From the NCBI GenBank assembly GCA_039924845.1, contig JBDTAC010000079.1, forward strand, positions 1 through 58,144: DNA of 58,144 bases, written 5' to 3'. The translations under genes and the position numbers were made by a program. The notes beneath the pieces were generated by a model that had not been told where the DNA came from, did not search any database, and saw only the letters and a program-made list of their open reading frames with translations. Shown in pieces: positions 1 to 5,444 of the stretch; positions within the stretch are counted from its first letter, which is position 1, and each line of letters starts with the position of its first letter. Origin of the DNA: Bacteroidia bacterium (GTDB taxonomy: Bacteria > Bacteroidota > Bacteroidia > DATLTG01).

Positions 1-100
1 CGAAATCCCTGCGGGCTTTCGTTACATCGGTTCGCGAGCTTTGCGAATGTCCAAAGCCCTACGGGACTTCGTACATCTGCGAGTTTTGCAAAAAGCAAGA
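1..100. repeat. Two tandem units with small CCC-NNN-GGG hairpins (REP-like)
   Basis: Two related units of about 50 bp lie side by side. Each starts with a small hairpin (AAATCCC-TGC-GGGCTTT at 3-19 and AAGCCC-TAC-GGGACTT at 54-69), then ACATC and a GCGAG-TTTGC segment. The hairpins resemble those after the Y1 transposase at 5,224-5,450, so they may be REP-like sequences lodged inside the first cassette junction. The left edge is cut by the window. Confidence 0.5.
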
Positions 101-105
101 CTCTT

Positions 106-129
106 CGCAAAGCTCGCGAACCGTTAGCC
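106..129 (+). other. Right half of an attC-like cassette junction (site A)
   Basis: A 23-base sequence at 106-128, ending in GTTAGC (123-128), is identical to the right end of the next junction (1278-1300). It marks the start of cassette 1. Bases 123-135 read in reverse complement match 12 of 13 bases at 1171-1183, the left arm of the junction that closes the same cassette. The left arm of site A itself lies outside the window or is disrupted by the hairpin units at 1-100. Confidence 0.6.
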
Positions 130-168
130 CTCATTTTAACACAGAATAAGGAATATAAATTTAAATAA

Positions 169-1182
169 ATGGAAAAAAAATATCAATTCTTCATCAGTTC
201 TACATACATTGATTTAGTTGAAGAACGAAAAGAAGTCATTCAAGCACTACTTGAGTTAGATTGCATTCCTGTTGGTATGGAATTATTTCCAGCAGCAAAT
301 GAAGACCAATGGACGCTTATTAAAGAATTAATTGACACTTGTGATTATTACTTACTAATTGTTGGTGGAAGATATGGTTCCTTAAACAGTCAGGGAATTA
401 GCTACACCCATATGGAATATGATTATGCTATTAAAAAAGGTATTCCTGTTATTGCATTTACACCTGCAAACCCAGAAGAAATAGCAGTAGGTAAAACTGA
501 TAAAGACCCAGAAAAAAATCAAAAACTAAATGACTTTTTAGATTTGGTTCAGCAAAAAATGTGTAAAAGTTATGAAAACCCCAAAGACCTAGGATCTGTG
601 GCAAGTAGAAGTATGATTAAACTAATAAAGAAACATCCTGCTATTGGTTGGGTTAGAGCAAATAAACTTACAAGTGCTGAAAGTAATATAGAAATTATTG
701 AATTAAGAAAGAAAGTTCAGGAACTAGAAGAAAAACTATATAAACAAAAGAATTTCGCTCCACAAGGAGCAGACTCATTAGAACAAGGAGAAGATAAAAT
801 AGAATTAAAATATCATTACGTGCAAAATGCTTGGCAATCTATGGTTGACTCTGAAGATGGAAGTATTGAATTTACTTGGGATGAAGTATTCAGTATTCTT
901 TCTCCTCTAATGGTTGACGAAGCACCAGAAGATTCATTACGAAATGAGATTGTGAAAATTATTAGAGAACAAATAAAAGAAAAAGAAAATCGCAGACCTT
1001 CCAAAATTGAAGTAAATGGAACAGATTTTCAAACAATTAAAATTCAACTTATAGCATTAGGTTTAATAGACAAAAGCGATAAGAAAAGAAGTATTAAAGA
1101 CAGTGATGTATATTGGAAACTAACACCTTTTGGAGAAAATAAAATGATGAGCCTAAAAGCGAGAAAGAAAAACGAGGGCTAA
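169..1182 (+). CDS. DUF4062 domain protein with C-terminal winged-helix-like region, cassette 1
   Basis: A 337-residue protein. Residues 1-100 carry the DUF4062 signature: FFISSTYIDLVEERKEV at the start, then VGMELFPA, DYYLLIVGGRYGS and THMEYDYAIKKGIPVIAF, a Rossmann-like fold distantly related to TIR domains. Residues 170-195 look like a short coiled coil (ELRKKVQELEEKL). Residues 275-330 look like a winged helix (KIEVNGTDFQTIKIQLIALGLI... YWKLTPFGE). In other bacteria DUF4062 is often the N-terminal module of large NTPases in anti-phage loci; here it stands alone. It is the only gene of cassette 1, on the cassette strand, with its stop codon next to the attC-like site. A defence role is inference only. 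Confidence 0.75.
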   Translation: MEKKYQFFISSTYIDLVEERKEVIQALLELDCIPVGMELFPAANEDQWTLIKELIDTCDYYLLIVGGRYGSLNSQGISYTHMEYDYAIKKGIPVIAFTPANPEEIAVGKTDKDPEKNQKLNDFLDLVQQKMCKSYENPKDLGSVASRSMIKLIKKHPAIGWVRANKLTSAESNIEIIELRKKVQELEEKLYKQKNFAPQGADSLEQGEDKIELKYHYVQNAWQSMVDSEDGSIEFTWDEVFSILSPLMVDEAPEDSLRNEIVKIIREQIKEKENRRPSKIEVNGTDFQTIKIQLIALGLIDKSDKKRSIKDSDVYWKLTPFGENKMMSLKARKKNEG

Positions 1183-1304
1183 CAGCCGTTTGGCGTGATT
1201 GGGGTTTTAGTGGAATTAGCGTTTTTTTACTACATTTACGTTAAGCCGAAAATACTCGGTTTCAAAGTCCCCAACCACGCAAAGCTCGCGAACCGTTAGC
1301 GGCT
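1171..1304 (+). other. attC-like recombination site B
   Basis: An imperfect palindrome closes cassette 1. The left arm ends GGCTAAC (1177-1183) and the right end is GTTAGC (1295-1300). Inside, GCGTGATTGGGG pairs with CCCCAACCACGC with one mismatch, leaving unpaired bases on one side, as in integron attC sites. The outer left bases GAGGGCTAAC are complementary to the start of cassette 1 (123-132), whereas the outer right bases belong to cassette 2. The consensus RYYYAAC/GTTRRRY is met only at its inner bases, so this is attC-like rather than a textbook attC. Confidence 0.65.
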
Positions 1305-1364
1305 ATTGTAAAACGACATCAAAAATTTAACAGACGACAAACATTTATTTAAAACTTATTGGCA

Positions 1365-1817
1365 ATGAAAACGATTTTTGATAAAGAAACAAGAGATAAA
1401 TTGATTGAAAGAATTAGCAAGCTTGATGAAAACAGTATAGCTCAATTCGGCAAGATGAATATTTACCAAATGGTGAAGCATTGTACTCTTTATGAAGAAT
1501 GGATATTAGGTAAAAACAAGCCTGAATATAAACAAGCATTCATTGGACGCTTATTTGGAAAAATGGCTTTGAAAGATATAATAAAAGATGAAAGCCCACT
1601 AAAGCGAAATGTACCTACACTTTCTTTTCTGAAAGTAAAAAAAGCAATAGGTGACATAGAAGCGGAAAAAAGTAAATGGATTATCCTGATTGAAGAGTAT
1701 GAATATTTTTCAAATCCAGACTTCATTCATTCTTTTTTCGGAAAAATGACAAAAGAACAAATTGGTTATATGGCTTATAAACATATTGACCATCATTTGA
1801 GACAATTTGGAGCATAG
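1365..1817 (+). CDS. DUF1569/DinB-like four-helix protein, cassette 2
   Basis: A 150-residue protein. The pattern KMNIYQMVKHCTLYEEWILG near the N terminus and KHIDHHLRQFGA at the C terminus fits the DUF1569 branch of the DinB superfamily, four-helix bundles that usually bind a metal through histidines. The ATG at 1365 is preferred over the in-frame TTG at 1359. It is the only gene of cassette 2; its stop lies 15 bases before site C. DinB-like proteins include thiol-dependent transferases, but no substrate can be deduced. Single-gene content and position next to the junction are typical of integron cassettes. Confidence 0.72.
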   Translation: MKTIFDKETRDKLIERISKLDENSIAQFGKMNIYQMVKHCTLYEEWILGKNKPEYKQAFIGRLFGKMALKDIIKDESPLKRNVPTLSFLKVKKAIGDIEAEKSKWIILIEEYEYFSNPDFIHSFFGKMTKEQIGYMAYKHIDHHLRQFGA

Positions 1818-1830
1818 ACAAAAAACAACA

Positions 1831-1967
1831 AACCGCTAACAGCACCTACATAAAAGGCGGGGTTTCGTGCTCCGCAGACACATTTGTGGTGAAACAAAGT
1901 TTGGTTCTCCATATCAACATTTGTTGTAAAATCGCCAACGATTTGTAGCTGCAAAACGTTAGCGGTA
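1831..1967 (+). other. attC-like recombination site C
   Basis: An imperfect palindrome from CCGCTAAC (1833-1840) to GTTAGCGG (1958-1965) closes cassette 2. The next paired block is CTACA (left) with TGTAG (1944-1948). Bases 1831-1840 match the reverse complement of the start of cassette 2 (1295-1304) at 9 of 10 positions. The interior contains a 76-bp block (1870-1945) that recurs exactly in site D. Confidence 0.65.
1870..1945 (+). repeat. 76-bp direct repeat, copy 1 (inside site C)
   Basis: It is identical over 76 bases to 4483-4558. It begins CTCCGCAGACACATTTG and ends CGCCAACGATTTG, and forms the inner part of the attC-like palindrome. It contains further small inverted repeats. Exact identity implies recent duplication or homogenisation of the junction. 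Confidence 0.9.
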
Positions 1968-2040
1968 ATGGCGGGGCGACAGTGCAACCATCGAACGACA
2001 GGGAAAACTTAATAATTTTCTGCACGAATGACCACACTTT

Positions 2041-3366
2041 TTGACTATTTTTGAACCAAATAAAAAAAAATTGAAAACTCATCATAAAATAATAAACGGA
2101 GACAGCAGACAAATGACCGAACTGCCAGACAATTCGGTGCATTTGGCTATTACTTCGCCACCATATTGGCAACTCAAAGACTATGGGACTGAGAACCAAA
2201 TTGGGTTTCACGACAATTACGAAAATTACATCAACAACCTGAATTTAGTTTGGAAAGAGTGCTACCGCACTCTTCACAATGGTTGCAGATTGTGTGTTAA
2301 CATTGGCGACCAATTTGCAAGAGCAGTTTATTACGGTCGCTATAAAGTAATTCCAATCCGAGAGGAAATAATTAAGTTCTGCGAAAATATTGGCTTCGAC
2401 TATATGGGAGCTATTATTTGGCAAAAGGTTACAACCTCTAATACATCAGGTGGAGGCGTTCAAATGGGCTCTTATCCTTACCCCAGAAATGGAATTTTAA
2501 AGCTCGATTATGAATTTATTTTGGTTTTCAAAAAATTGGGGGATGCACCTAAACCGACTAAAGAACAAAAGGAACTTTCTAAAATGACAGCGGAAGAATG
2601 GAACACTTTTTTTGCTGGACATTGGAATTTTGCAGGCGCGAGACAGAACAACCATATGGCAATGTATCCAGAAGAATTACCAAGACGATTAATTAAAATG
2701 TTTTCGTTTATAGGAGAAAATATTCTTGACCCATTCGCAGGAAGCGGAACAACCTCATTAGCTGCTAAAAATCTTGAACGAAATTCAATGGGATTTGAAA
2801 TTAATCAGGAATTTATTCCAATCATAAAAGAAAAATTAGAGGTCCATCAAAAAGACTTGAATGGAACTACTTATGAGTTTTTAAAACAAAAAGAGTTTAA
2901 AACCGACTTTGAGGAAGAAATCCAAAAGTTTCCTTACATATTCAAGGACCCTCATACGCTTGACAAAAAAATTGATGTAAAAAAATTACAATTCGGTTCT
3001 AAAATTGACAAAGACAGTACCAACAAAAGAGAAGATTTTTTTATGGTCAAAGAAATTATCAGTCCCGAAAAAATTCGCTTGAGCAATGATTTAACGATTA
3101 AACTTATTGGAATAAAAGAAGACACAATTATAAATGGCAAAGCAACAGCATTTCTAATTGAAAAAACAAAAGGTAAACGAGTTTTTCTTAAATATGACAA
3201 GGAAAAATACGACAAGGAAAATAATTTGCTTTGCTACTTATATCTTGAAAACAAAACTTTCATCAATGCTCACTTAATTAAAAAAGGGCTTGCTCAGGTG
3301 GACAGCGAAATGGATTTCAAATACAAAAATAAATTTTTAAGCCTCTACAAAGAAGTATGCCTATAA
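2041..3366 (+). CDS. Type II DNA methyltransferase (N4-cytosine class motif) with C-terminal SNase-like domain, cassette 3
   Basis: A 441-residue modification enzyme. TSPPYWQLKDYG (motif IV, residues 38-49; SPPY is usual in N4-cytosine enzymes) precedes DPFAGSGTTSLAA (SAM-binding motif I, 230-242), the permuted beta-class order. Residues 335-438 resemble a staphylococcal-nuclease fold: IKLIGIK, GKRVFLKYDKEKYD, LLCYLYLENKTFINAHLIKKGLAQV. At the positions of nuclease Arg35, Asp40, Glu43 and Arg87 I read Lys354, Lys359, Thr362 and a lysine near 389, so cleavage is unlikely. Start TTG 2041 is chosen because the nearby ATG at 2028 meets a stop after five codons and the ATG at 2113 would remove the GDS segment. 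It overlaps the next gene by 10 bases. The partner nuclease family suggests CTAG as target. Confidence 0.85.
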   Translation: MTIFEPNKKKLKTHHKIINGDSRQMTELPDNSVHLAITSPPYWQLKDYGTENQIGFHDNYENYINNLNLVWKECYRTLHNGCRLCVNIGDQFARAVYYGRYKVIPIREEIIKFCENIGFDYMGAIIWQKVTTSNTSGGGVQMGSYPYPRNGILKLDYEFILVFKKLGDAPKPTKEQKELSKMTAEEWNTFFAGHWNFAGARQNNHMAMYPEELPRRLIKMFSFIGENILDPFAGSGTTSLAAKNLERNSMGFEINQEFIPIIKEKLEVHQKDLNGTTYEFLKQKEFKTDFEEEIQKFPYIFKDPHTLDKKIDVKKLQFGSKIDKDSTNKREDFFMVKEIISPEKIRLSNDLTIKLIGIKEDTIINGKATAFLIEKTKGKRVFLKYDKEKYDKENNLLCYLYLENKTFINAHLIKKGLAQVDSEMDFKYKNKFLSLYKEVCL

Positions 3367-3722
3367 ATTATACCCACCAAGAAAGACAAGCGTTATTAGC
3401 CACTTTAATATTGGGGCGACAGAATGCAATTGGAGCAAGTAGATTAGCCCAACTATTAGGTTATCCGATTGGAGGAAATCAGGTTCAATTAAGAGGTTTA
3501 ATAAAAGAGTGCATTGAATTCGATGAGGATTTAATCGGTGCAACAACGAGTAGACCTGCTGGATTTTTTAGAATTAATACTATCAATGAATTAGAAAATT
3601 ATTTGGATAGTTTAGAAAATCGCACTCGTAGCGACAACGACAGAAGAACTGCCTTAATAAATAGTTGGAATAATCAACCAAATATTCCTAATACAATTAA
3701 ACCAATACTAACAGTACAATAA
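3357..3722 (+). CDS. Small protein between methyltransferase and endonuclease of the RM operon
   Basis: A 121-residue protein I do not recognise. Residues 5-60 are helical (HQERQALLATLILGRQNAIGASRLAQLLGYPI) and could form a winged helix; the C-terminal third is Asn/Arg-rich and probably loose. Its start overlaps the methyltransferase end by 10 bases and its stop shares a base with the endonuclease start (TAATG), so the three genes are translationally coupled. Position suggests a controller or accessory subunit of the RM system, but its sequence does not resemble known C proteins. Function unassigned. Confidence 0.6.
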   Translation: MPINYTHQERQALLATLILGRQNAIGASRLAQLLGYPIGGNQVQLRGLIKECIEFDEDLIGATTSRPAGFFRINTINELENYLDSLENRTRSDNDRRTALINSWNNQPNIPNTIKPILTVQ

Positions 3723-4426
3723 TGGCTAAAGAATGGATTGTCGCATCAGATGGCGAAGGATTAAAGTTTAAGCACGAAACGCTATTAAATTATGGTTTAA
3801 ACAGATGGGGATTAAATAAAGCTTACAGCGTGGGTGCTTTATCAGAATTAATTAGAAGTTGCGCCCCAAAAGAATTTAAAGAATGGGAAGAATTTTACTT
3901 TACTAAGGGAAGTCAAAAAAAGAAAGACGGAATAAAAATAACAAGAGAGTATATCACTGGACTTGGTCAAACCCTTTATATCAAGTTAACAGAAGTCGTT
4001 CAAAAGGAGTTAGCCTCTATAACCGAAGACGAGTGTATTGAATACGCTTATAATCTTGTTCTTCGCAGAACATATGATGGTTACAGAACAGAAATTGAAA
4101 CTATTTACGGACAATTAGAGGGTGCAGTTGAGCGTAAAATAGAACCAGCGCCAGACAATTGGGATAGAGCTTATAGCGTAGACTTTTTTATAAAAATCGA
4201 AAAGAAATTTATCGGTATTCAAATTAAGCCAATTGCATCTGGACAAGCATTAAATCAATTTCAATGGATTGAAATGCACAGGAAAAATCACGAAAAATTT
4301 GAAAATGAATTTGGCGGAAAAGTTTTTTTTGTTTATTCAATAAAAGCTGGGACAGGTAAAAAGAAAATTTTCAATGTAGAAGTAATTGAAGAAATAAGAG
4401 CAGAAATTAAACGACTTTCCAAATAG
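3722..4426 (+). CDS. MjaI-family type II restriction endonuclease, cassette 3
   Basis: A 234-residue protein. The central block LRRTYDGYRTEIETIYGQLE (114-133), EPAPDNWDRAYSVDFFIKIEKKFIGIQIKP (141-170) and the later KNHEKFENEFGGKVFFVYS match what I recall of the MjaI family, whose founder recognises CTAG. The D-x12-QxK pattern (Asp154, Gln167, Lys169) fits a PD-(D/E)XK active site with Gln replacing the usual acid. It is coupled to the small protein and the methyltransferase, giving a complete modification-to-restriction operon inside one cassette. The specificity is inference from the family. Confidence 0.82.
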   Translation: MAKEWIVASDGEGLKFKHETLLNYGLNRWGLNKAYSVGALSELIRSCAPKEFKEWEEFYFTKGSQKKKDGIKITREYITGLGQTLYIKLTEVVQKELASITEDECIEYAYNLVLRRTYDGYRTEIETIYGQLEGAVERKIEPAPDNWDRAYSVDFFIKIEKKFIGIQIKPIASGQALNQFQWIEMHRKNHEKFENEFGGKVFFVYSIKAGTGKKKIFNVEVIEEIRAEIKRLSK

Positions 4427-4443
4427 CGACCAAAGAAGCCACA

Positions 4444-4558
4444 TACCGCCAACAGCGGGTTTGAGAAATTGGCGGTTCATGTCTCCGCAGACACATTTGT
4501 GGTGAAACAAAGTTTGGTTCTCCATATCAACATTTGTTGTAAAATCGCCAACGATTTG
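4444..4558 (+). other. Truncated attC-like site D
   Basis: The left arm TACCGCCAAC (4444-4453) matches the reverse complement of the start of cassette 3 (1958-1967) at 9 of 10 bases. The interior includes the exact 76-bp repeat shared with site C, but the right end with GTTAG is missing: after 4558 the sequence changes to a coding fragment. CCGCCAA (4446-4452) also pairs with TTGGCGG (4469-4475). The site is therefore broken, and cassette 3 should not be excisable from this side. Confidence 0.6.
4483..4558 (+). repeat. 76-bp direct repeat, copy 2 (inside site D)
   Basis: Exact copy of 1870-1945. Its right edge coincides with the breakpoint at 4558/4559. Confidence 0.9.
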
Positions 4559-4761: not shown

Positions 4762-5223
4762 ATGTCAGGAACATTTTCACAAATTTATATTCAAATAGTT
4801 TTTGCCGTTAAAGGCAGAGAAAATATAATTGCTAAAGCATGGAAAGATGATTTGCATAAATACATATCTGGCATCATTAAAGGGAAAGACCAAAAATCAA
4901 TTATTGTAAATGGTATGCCAGACCATATCCATGCTTTTATTGGGTTAAAGCCATCTATGTCAATTTCAGATTTGGTGAGAGATATCAAAAACAATTCGAG
5001 TAAGTTTATCAATGAAAACAAATTGGTAAAAGGAAAATTTTCATGGCAGGAAGGGTATGGTGTATTTTCCTATTCGCATTCGCAAATTGAAAATGTTTAC
5101 AATTACATATTAAATCAGGAGGAGCATCATAAAGTAAAAAGTTTCAGAGAAGAATATGTTGAATTTTTAGAAAAATTTGAGATTGAACACAATGAAAAAT
5201 ATTTGTTTGATTGGATTGAATAA
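4762..5223 (+). CDS. Y1 (HUH) transposase, IS200/REP-associated type
   Basis: A 153-residue single-domain transposase. NGMPDHIHAFIGL (50-62) holds the metal-binding H-x-H pair (His55, His57). WQEGYGVFSYSHSQIENVYNYILNQEEHH (95-123) is the conserved C-terminal helix region, with the nucleophilic tyrosine probably Tyr113 or Tyr115. The length is normal for a full copy. It starts two bases after the upstream remnant's stop. No tnpB follows; instead there is a run of small hairpins at 5224-5444, the arrangement seen for REP-associated tyrosine transposases. It probably cuts and moves single-stranded DNA. Confidence 0.85.
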   Translation: MSGTFSQIYIQIVFAVKGRENIIAKAWKDDLHKYISGIIKGKDQKSIIVNGMPDHIHAFIGLKPSMSISDLVRDIKNNSSKFINENKLVKGKFSWQEGYGVFSYSHSQIENVYNYILNQEEHHKVKSFREEYVEFLEKFEIEHNEKYLFDWIE

Positions 5224-5444
5224 TGTCACCCCTTCGGGGTTTACATTCGTTATAGATTCGTTTTTTACAATCATTCCATCTGCTACAATAATATCATCCC
5301 TTCGGGATTAAAAATAAAACGAAAGCCCGAAGGGCTGATATAATTATAGAAAAAAATGAAATGTGTGATATGAAGAACCTCGAAGAGGTTTAATCTTTAT
5401 AAAAACGAATAATAACAAAAAAAATTCGACTCCGAATGGGGTCG
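5224..5444. repeat. Cluster of five small hairpins (REP-like) after the Y1 transposase
   Basis: This non-coding stretch (to 5548) holds short palindromes with 3-4 base loops: ACCCC-TTC-GGGGT (5228-5240), ATCCC-TTC-GGGAT (5296-5308), AGCCC-GAA-GGGCT (5324-5336, opposite orientation), AACCTC-GAA-GAGGTT (5376-5390) and CGACTCC-GAAT-GGGGTCG (5427-5444). TTC/GAA loops with CCC/GGG stems recur. Such hairpins are the substrates of REP-associated HUH transposases, so they are likely tied to the gene just upstream. From 5445 to 5531 I see nothing else. Confidence 0.6.

Follow-up and report, generated by a model that had tools for sequence, protein, structure and literature searches.

The window analysed here, a stretch of 58,144 nucleotides from a Bacteroidia bacterium, starts at base 1 of contig C79 of a 2.66-Mb assembly (101 contigs), and its first 4.5 kb hold an array of three gene cassettes (Table 1). 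The cassettes begin with GTTAG at positions 123, 1295 and 1958, and the left cores of their sites read CTAAC at 1179-1183 and 1836-1840 and CCAAC at 4449-4453. These positions agree with the cassettes given in a preliminary description of this DNA (123-1294, 1295-1957 and 1958 to about 4453). Because the window and the contig share their first base, the sequence preceding site A is missing; site A is a long perfect palindrome, but the contig begins inside it and its left half cannot be judged. At the other end, site D does repeat the inner 76 nt of site C but is truncated. Past 4558 neither the right arm nor the GTT core that would be expected is there, and the array therefore terminates at D.

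Table 1. Features of the cassette array at the start of the window
Feature	Position	Strand	Evidence
Site A, right part of attC-like hairpin	1..122	+	perfect 20-bp arms 28-47/104-123; fold z about -8 to -10
Cassette 1: DUF4062 ORF and attC-like site B	123..1294	+	own ends 14/15
DUF4062 protein, 337 aa	169..1182	+	PF13271, E 2.4e-29
attC-like site B, CTAAC...GTTAG	1179..1299	+	R1 and R2 models
Cassette 2: one ORF and attC-like site C	1295..1957	+	own ends 8/9, 10/15; R2 E 7e-10
DUF1569 / DinB-like protein	1365..1817	+	PF07606, E 2.2e-9
attC-like site C, CTAAC...GTTAG	1836..1962	+	models; fold z -3.1 and -3.6
Cassette 3: three-ORF restriction-modification system and truncated site D	1958..4558	+	own ends GTTAGCGGTA / GTTGGCGGTA
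N4/N6 DNA methyltransferase, C-terminal SNase-like domain	2068..3366	+	PF01555 1.3e-41, PF00565 3e-8
121-aa protein between methyltransferase and endonuclease, function not assigned	3357..3722	+	
MjaI-type restriction endonuclease	3722..4426	+	PF09568 4.5e-36
Site D, left core CCAAC and inner 76 nt identical to site C	4449..4558	+	

The ORF of cassette 1 ends with its stop codon inside the CTAAC core, and this cassette with its site scores E 1.6e-13 with the covariance model R1, of which site B is a part, and E 2.9e-12 with the larger model R2 (both described below). The methyltransferase gene is also recognized by PADLOC (MTase_II, 3.7e-179). From 1958 to 4426, cassette 3 encodes a whole type II restriction-modification system, a large cargo for one cassette. 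Rfam at gathering thresholds gave no match in the window, and BLAST of the window array returned nothing among phages and only DUF4062 homologues among plasmids. Outside the array, at 4762-5350, small palindromes (cccTTCGggg) come after an IS200-like Y1 transposase; the two may be a RAYT/REP pair.

The ends of each cassette are complementary to one another. Over the first 15 nt, counted from the G, cassettes 1, 2 and 3 agree with their own other ends at 14/15, 10/15 and 10/15 positions (9/9, 8/9 and 8/9 over the first 9 nt), and when GTTAG...CTAAC pairs were sought without bias across the whole window, cassette 1 stood out with 9/10, the runner-up reaching 5/10. The same rule holds for 107 cassettes from many genomes, each bounded by consecutive sites at a distance below 1.6 kb: of the 12 nt past GTT, 8.72 on average agree with the cassette's own other end and 4.45 with the other side of the same site, compared with 4.23 at random. 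Both halves of the preliminary description, that cassette ends match themselves and that the two sides of one junction do not match outside the core, are borne out, and its reading of integron-like cassettes whose ends come from each cassette's own circle is supported. The neighbouring arms of sites B and C agree at 6/12 positions outside GTT, slightly above the random mean of 4.2 because many cassettes begin with GTTAGCGG. Agreement with the own end is 88-98% at nt 4-9 and 2% at nt 11, a conserved mismatch in which the cassette start has A and the other end reads G, paralleling the inner stem of the sites. Class 1 integron cassettes have matching own ends as well (7-13 nt); this is a trait common to integrons, and by itself it is neither new nor unusual. 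The bases just 5' of GTT (CAAACC, CCAAAC, CAAAAC) differ among copies of one cassette and might mark the strand-exchange region.

Four sites from the window's genome (two in the window, one on contig C38 and one on C54) were aligned by their arms only, an automatic whole-loop alignment having been dropped after it misplaced site E. The hairpin common to them consists of the CTAAC/GTTAG core, an asymmetric 1-nt/5-nt spacer and an inner stem of about 19 pairs with a fixed A.C mismatch. Of its 24 pairs, 13 are altered on both sides, compared with 6.4 after shuffling and at most 5 in slid controls. In an alignment of 45 sites the corresponding counts are 259 cells, 81 shuffled and at most 82 slid, and as this alignment was fitted to the structure, the counts lean that way. 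The sites thus show, by covariation, the structure-conserved and sequence-variable hairpin of attC, and the attC-type fold on which the preliminary description had made its reading depend is found. Single-sequence folding was set aside as sole proof in favour of covariation, because its z-scores are only moderate for sites B and F. The core boxes GTT/AAC are present, with GTTA or GTTG usual, and the RRY of GTTRRRY is often unmatched (GTTAGCG, GTTACTG). Covariance models were built from the four own-genome sites only (R1) and from the 45 sites (R2), and the E-values of both are rough. Applied to five class 1 integron loci and to the IntI locus of genome G141, R2 gave no match at E <=10.

Contig C38 of the same genome opens with the same 127 bp as the window and then continues into a different cassette, GTTAGGCAACATTGT ... 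ACAACGTTGCCTAAC, with own ends matching at 14/15. The same site sequence therefore precedes different genes in one genome (C79 and C38), and the junction segments are not tied to fixed genes, as the cassette reading had foreseen. Additional sites occur on contigs C54 and C62. Comparison genomes were taken at class and phylum level, because the family and order levels contain only the window's genome. With R1, 44 of 295 genomes of the same class matched at E <=0.1 (best 1.6e-11), and the stretches around these matches are tandem arrays on a single strand. With R2, sites were identified in 199/295 class genomes (E <=0.001) and 137/396 phylum genomes (E <=1e-6); one genome (G145) has 18 sites in a 20-kb stretch, about one per kb. 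Of 102 cassette ORFs, 95 share the strand of the array and seven are opposite, with a median coverage of 83% of the cassette; the cassettes are tandem and mostly carry one ORF, the three-ORF cassette 3 of the window being an exception. On a Tenacibaculum finnmarkense plasmid (L225), a DUF4062 gene lies between weak site-like matches (E 0.0009-0.15), and some 6 kb away there is a different tyrosine recombinase scoring far below the array clade; this is a weak lead to what is possibly a more distant related system.

In several genomes, homologues of one tyrosine recombinase lie 5' of the arrays. In a locus set gathered by recombinase similarity alone, independent of the sites, 40 of 42 sites are 3' of the recombinase and on its strand. 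A site is present at 17 of 22 Bacteroidota loci with 1.5 kb of downstream sequence and at none of the 37 loci from other phyla, which sets the related recombinases outside Bacteroidota apart; for some recombinases of the clade no site was detected. The start of the first cassette, located by the own-end rule (>=8/10, a value that decoy ends achieve in 1.9%), was found at 36 of 38 loci and falls less than 200 bp from the recombinase gene at 29 of the 38, with conserved sequence before it. Most loci are codirectional (integrase, then array), with the consensus tT.cg.aTATAaAc.A|GTT, and a minority is divergent, with the consensus TTTCGTATATTAG.GA|GTT (five sequences). Judged from these alignments, the conserved sequence before the first cassette is an attI in position and behaviour. 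The layout tracks the recombinase tree; the divergent locus L149 is placed elsewhere. The catalytic residues R-K-H-R-H-Y are conserved (alignment A7).

The preliminary description had seen no integrase, and for the genome as a whole this does not stand: its only recombinase gene of the array clade, with the same catalytic residues, lies on contig C21 (9073-10140, minus strand) at the contig end. The tree places it together with the divergent-layout loci L211, L212, L213 and L153, in a clade whose support is starred. On its 5' side an attI-like sequence, ATTCGCCAATAAGTAT|GTTGCCTGC, one of the five behind the divergent consensus, lies at about 10283; the gene after it is interrupted by the end of the contig. 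The continuation of this array was not found in the assembly and the contig is not joined to the window's cassettes, so that their link to the C21 recombinase is indirect. The only other pattern match, on C62, considered as the far end of the first C21 cassette, was rejected; it lies in a different inverted repeat and not in an attC-like site. No IntI was found in the window's genome. Near the recombinase gene (L014, about 7644-8006 on C21) there are short tandem repeats with units like ACATGCGCCATCAAAC.

The IntI model TIGR02249 matches the array recombinase below its cut-off and in two pieces (about 4-178 and 241-315), skipping about 179-240, where IntI bears its specific insertion. The IntI-specific domain around patch III has been described as a defining and necessary feature of integrons (PMC9668308), and the array recombinase does not have it. 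In a quick tree that leaves the deep order unsettled, IntI1 and the IntI of G141 form their own fully supported branch. On these comparisons the array recombinase is not IntI, and with arrays that start at a non-IntI recombinase and an attI-like sequence, the alternative raised in the preliminary description, a divergent integron, gains support. The closest matches in a single stretch, over the core and catalytic domains, are XerA and archaeal XerC-like proteins (NF040815, 4a8e, 5hxy), with 195 bits to 4a8e and 195-226 bits to NF040815 (cut-off 220), which NCBI names 'site-specific tyrosine recombinase/integron integrase'. Unlike these proteins, the Bacteroidota recombinase has an additional N-terminal domain and is associated with arrays and attI. 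The predicted structure of a relative from Algoriphagus (mean pLDDT 84) has as its best PDB match 2a3v, the Vibrio integron integrase (E 1.2e-16), and so would share the overall fold of IntI. The protein carries some 74 additional residues that form an N-terminal domain (pLDDT 92). This domain has a weak match to the HARP family PF07443 in 2 of 24 members (best E 0.001), and in fold comparisons the HARP domain of SMARCAL1 and the DNA-damage recognition domain of XPB rank highest. These fold matches are not significant, however (E 0.07-0.09), and DUF5710 matches more members (8/24, best E 6e-5). The domain is possibly HARP-like, which we regard as a lead only, and that it binds junctions of single- and double-stranded DNA is a guess.

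Exact exchange of cassettes is seen among relatives. Copies of one cassette of 1,435 bp, with genes for an ArsR-like regulator and a MerT/HMA-type protein, share about 97% identity across three families (L060 12759-14193, L208 and L213; genomes G076, G096 and G080). On the left, identity begins exactly at GTT; on the right, it runs through the hairpin to the variable spacer before the next GTT, and the sequence next to it is unrelated. The cassette occurs in both codirectional and divergent arrays. This metal-resistance-like cassette marks a recent horizontal cassette transfer.

It is highly probable, in our view, that the window begins with the end of an integron array of a Bacteroidota type, run by the array-associated tyrosine recombinase. 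From the site anatomy, covariation, own-end rule, polarity, attI position, catalytic residues and exact cassette exchange observed above, we infer that the recombinase of the array clade carries out the recombination, that a folded single strand is its substrate and which bond it cleaves. The integrase would insert circular cassettes at the double-stranded attI beside its own gene, and excision or reshuffling would take place at the attC-like sites, read as folded single strands. A free cassette would form one hairpin with two stems. The inner stem would comprise about 19 bp with the A.C mismatch, behind the 1x5-nt asymmetric spacer AAC-A / RAAMC-GTT; the outer stem would arise where the two ends of the cassette pair with each other over GTT and about 12 further bp, nt 11 forming a second A.C mismatch. 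The two stems are probably the integrase-binding arms around the GTT/AAC exchange point, and the folded cassette strand would be joined to attI at GTT. Insertion would part the outer halves, which would explain why a cassette's ends match each other but not those of its neighbours.

A remnant of a classical IntI integron, in the form of an ordinary attC cluster devoid of an integrase (CALIN) whose attC sites had merely diverged, would account for the absence of an integrase in the window itself and for the integron-like GTTA/G core and cassette anatomy, and such clusters are common (PMC9024848). However, IntI above the curated cut-off is found in 1 of the 295 class genomes, compared with sites in 199; that genome (G141) is outside the site-positive set and its IntI locus has no R2 site. 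As the arrays also begin at a different recombinase, and the site model has no match to class 1 integron arrays at the threshold given above, we consider this origin improbable. The integrase of G141 (L202 3295-4542, contig C40) is itself a genuine IntI type, with 428 bits to TIGR02249 and an extended N-terminus.

It is about equally improbable that other machinery makes the cassettes and that the recombinase is a frequent passenger at the same insertion hot spots. Sites and recombinase occur together in 138 class genomes and are both absent from 84 (odds ratio 15.8, p 3e-21, the genomes not being independent), with 61 genomes having sites without a recombinase at the cut-off and 12 showing the reverse. 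Those 61 genomes would fit a passenger, as would the relationship of the clade to XerA-type proteins with housekeeping roles. A passenger would not be expected, however, to keep a nearly fixed position, strand and distance to the first cassette, a conserved attI-like sequence beside its gene, and a layout that follows its own tree. Finally, REP-like or IS200/RAYT-type palindromes spread by the Y1 transposase (4762-5223) without any cassette function, suggested by that gene and the small palindromes next to it, can practically be dismissed, since the gene lies outside the array, the sites have cassette ends, and such spread would not explain why the two ends of each gene unit are complementary, why cassette boundaries are exact across three families and why the polar array is anchored at a recombinase.

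The integron reading places the Bacteroidota arrays beside the IntI integrons (class 1 and Vibrio superintegrons), which likewise have an integrase beside attI, a polar array on one strand, mostly one-gene cassettes, a GTT core, variable palindromic attC-like sites, ends that match in the circle and horizontal exchange of cassettes. In contrast to IntI, the Bacteroidota integrase has no IntI-specific insertion, carries the extra N-terminal domain and stands apart in the tree, and its sites differ in their spacer and fixed A.C mismatches, with class 1 sites undetected by R2; the mixture of mostly codirectional and some divergent loci is a further difference. The system works like an integron, with the same architecture, but without the defining IntI feature, and we file it as an integron variant outside the IntI family. 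In the open-licence literature that our search covered, Bacteroidota integrons appear only as integrase-only elements, apart from a single complete integron in Salinibacter (PMC9024848), and we found no previous account of integrons such as these.

Together, these findings point to a second kind of integron, widespread in Bacteroidota and outside the standard integron definitions. We lean slightly towards a broader view, in which Bacteroidota have their own integron type in most of the sampled class genomes, the tyrosine recombinase lineage that runs it gained capture by folded sites without the IntI domain, perhaps via an N-terminal, HARP-like domain that binds junctions, and integrons arose or were re-engineered twice. 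If the integron reading is right, this large phylum harbours a platform for gene capture that has gone unrecognised and of which hundreds of cassettes can already be seen, and it becomes directly testable whether recognition of folded attC requires the IntI insertion, and how integrons originated. The visible cargo includes mercury-transport, aminoglycoside and lincosamide nucleotidyltransferase-like and restriction-modification genes. Among 91 cassette proteins (L054, L060, L063 and others; alignment A11), which include streptomycin adenylyltransferase-like and lincosamide nucleotidyltransferase-like proteins, each of the listed Pfam families occurs in only 1-3 of the 91.
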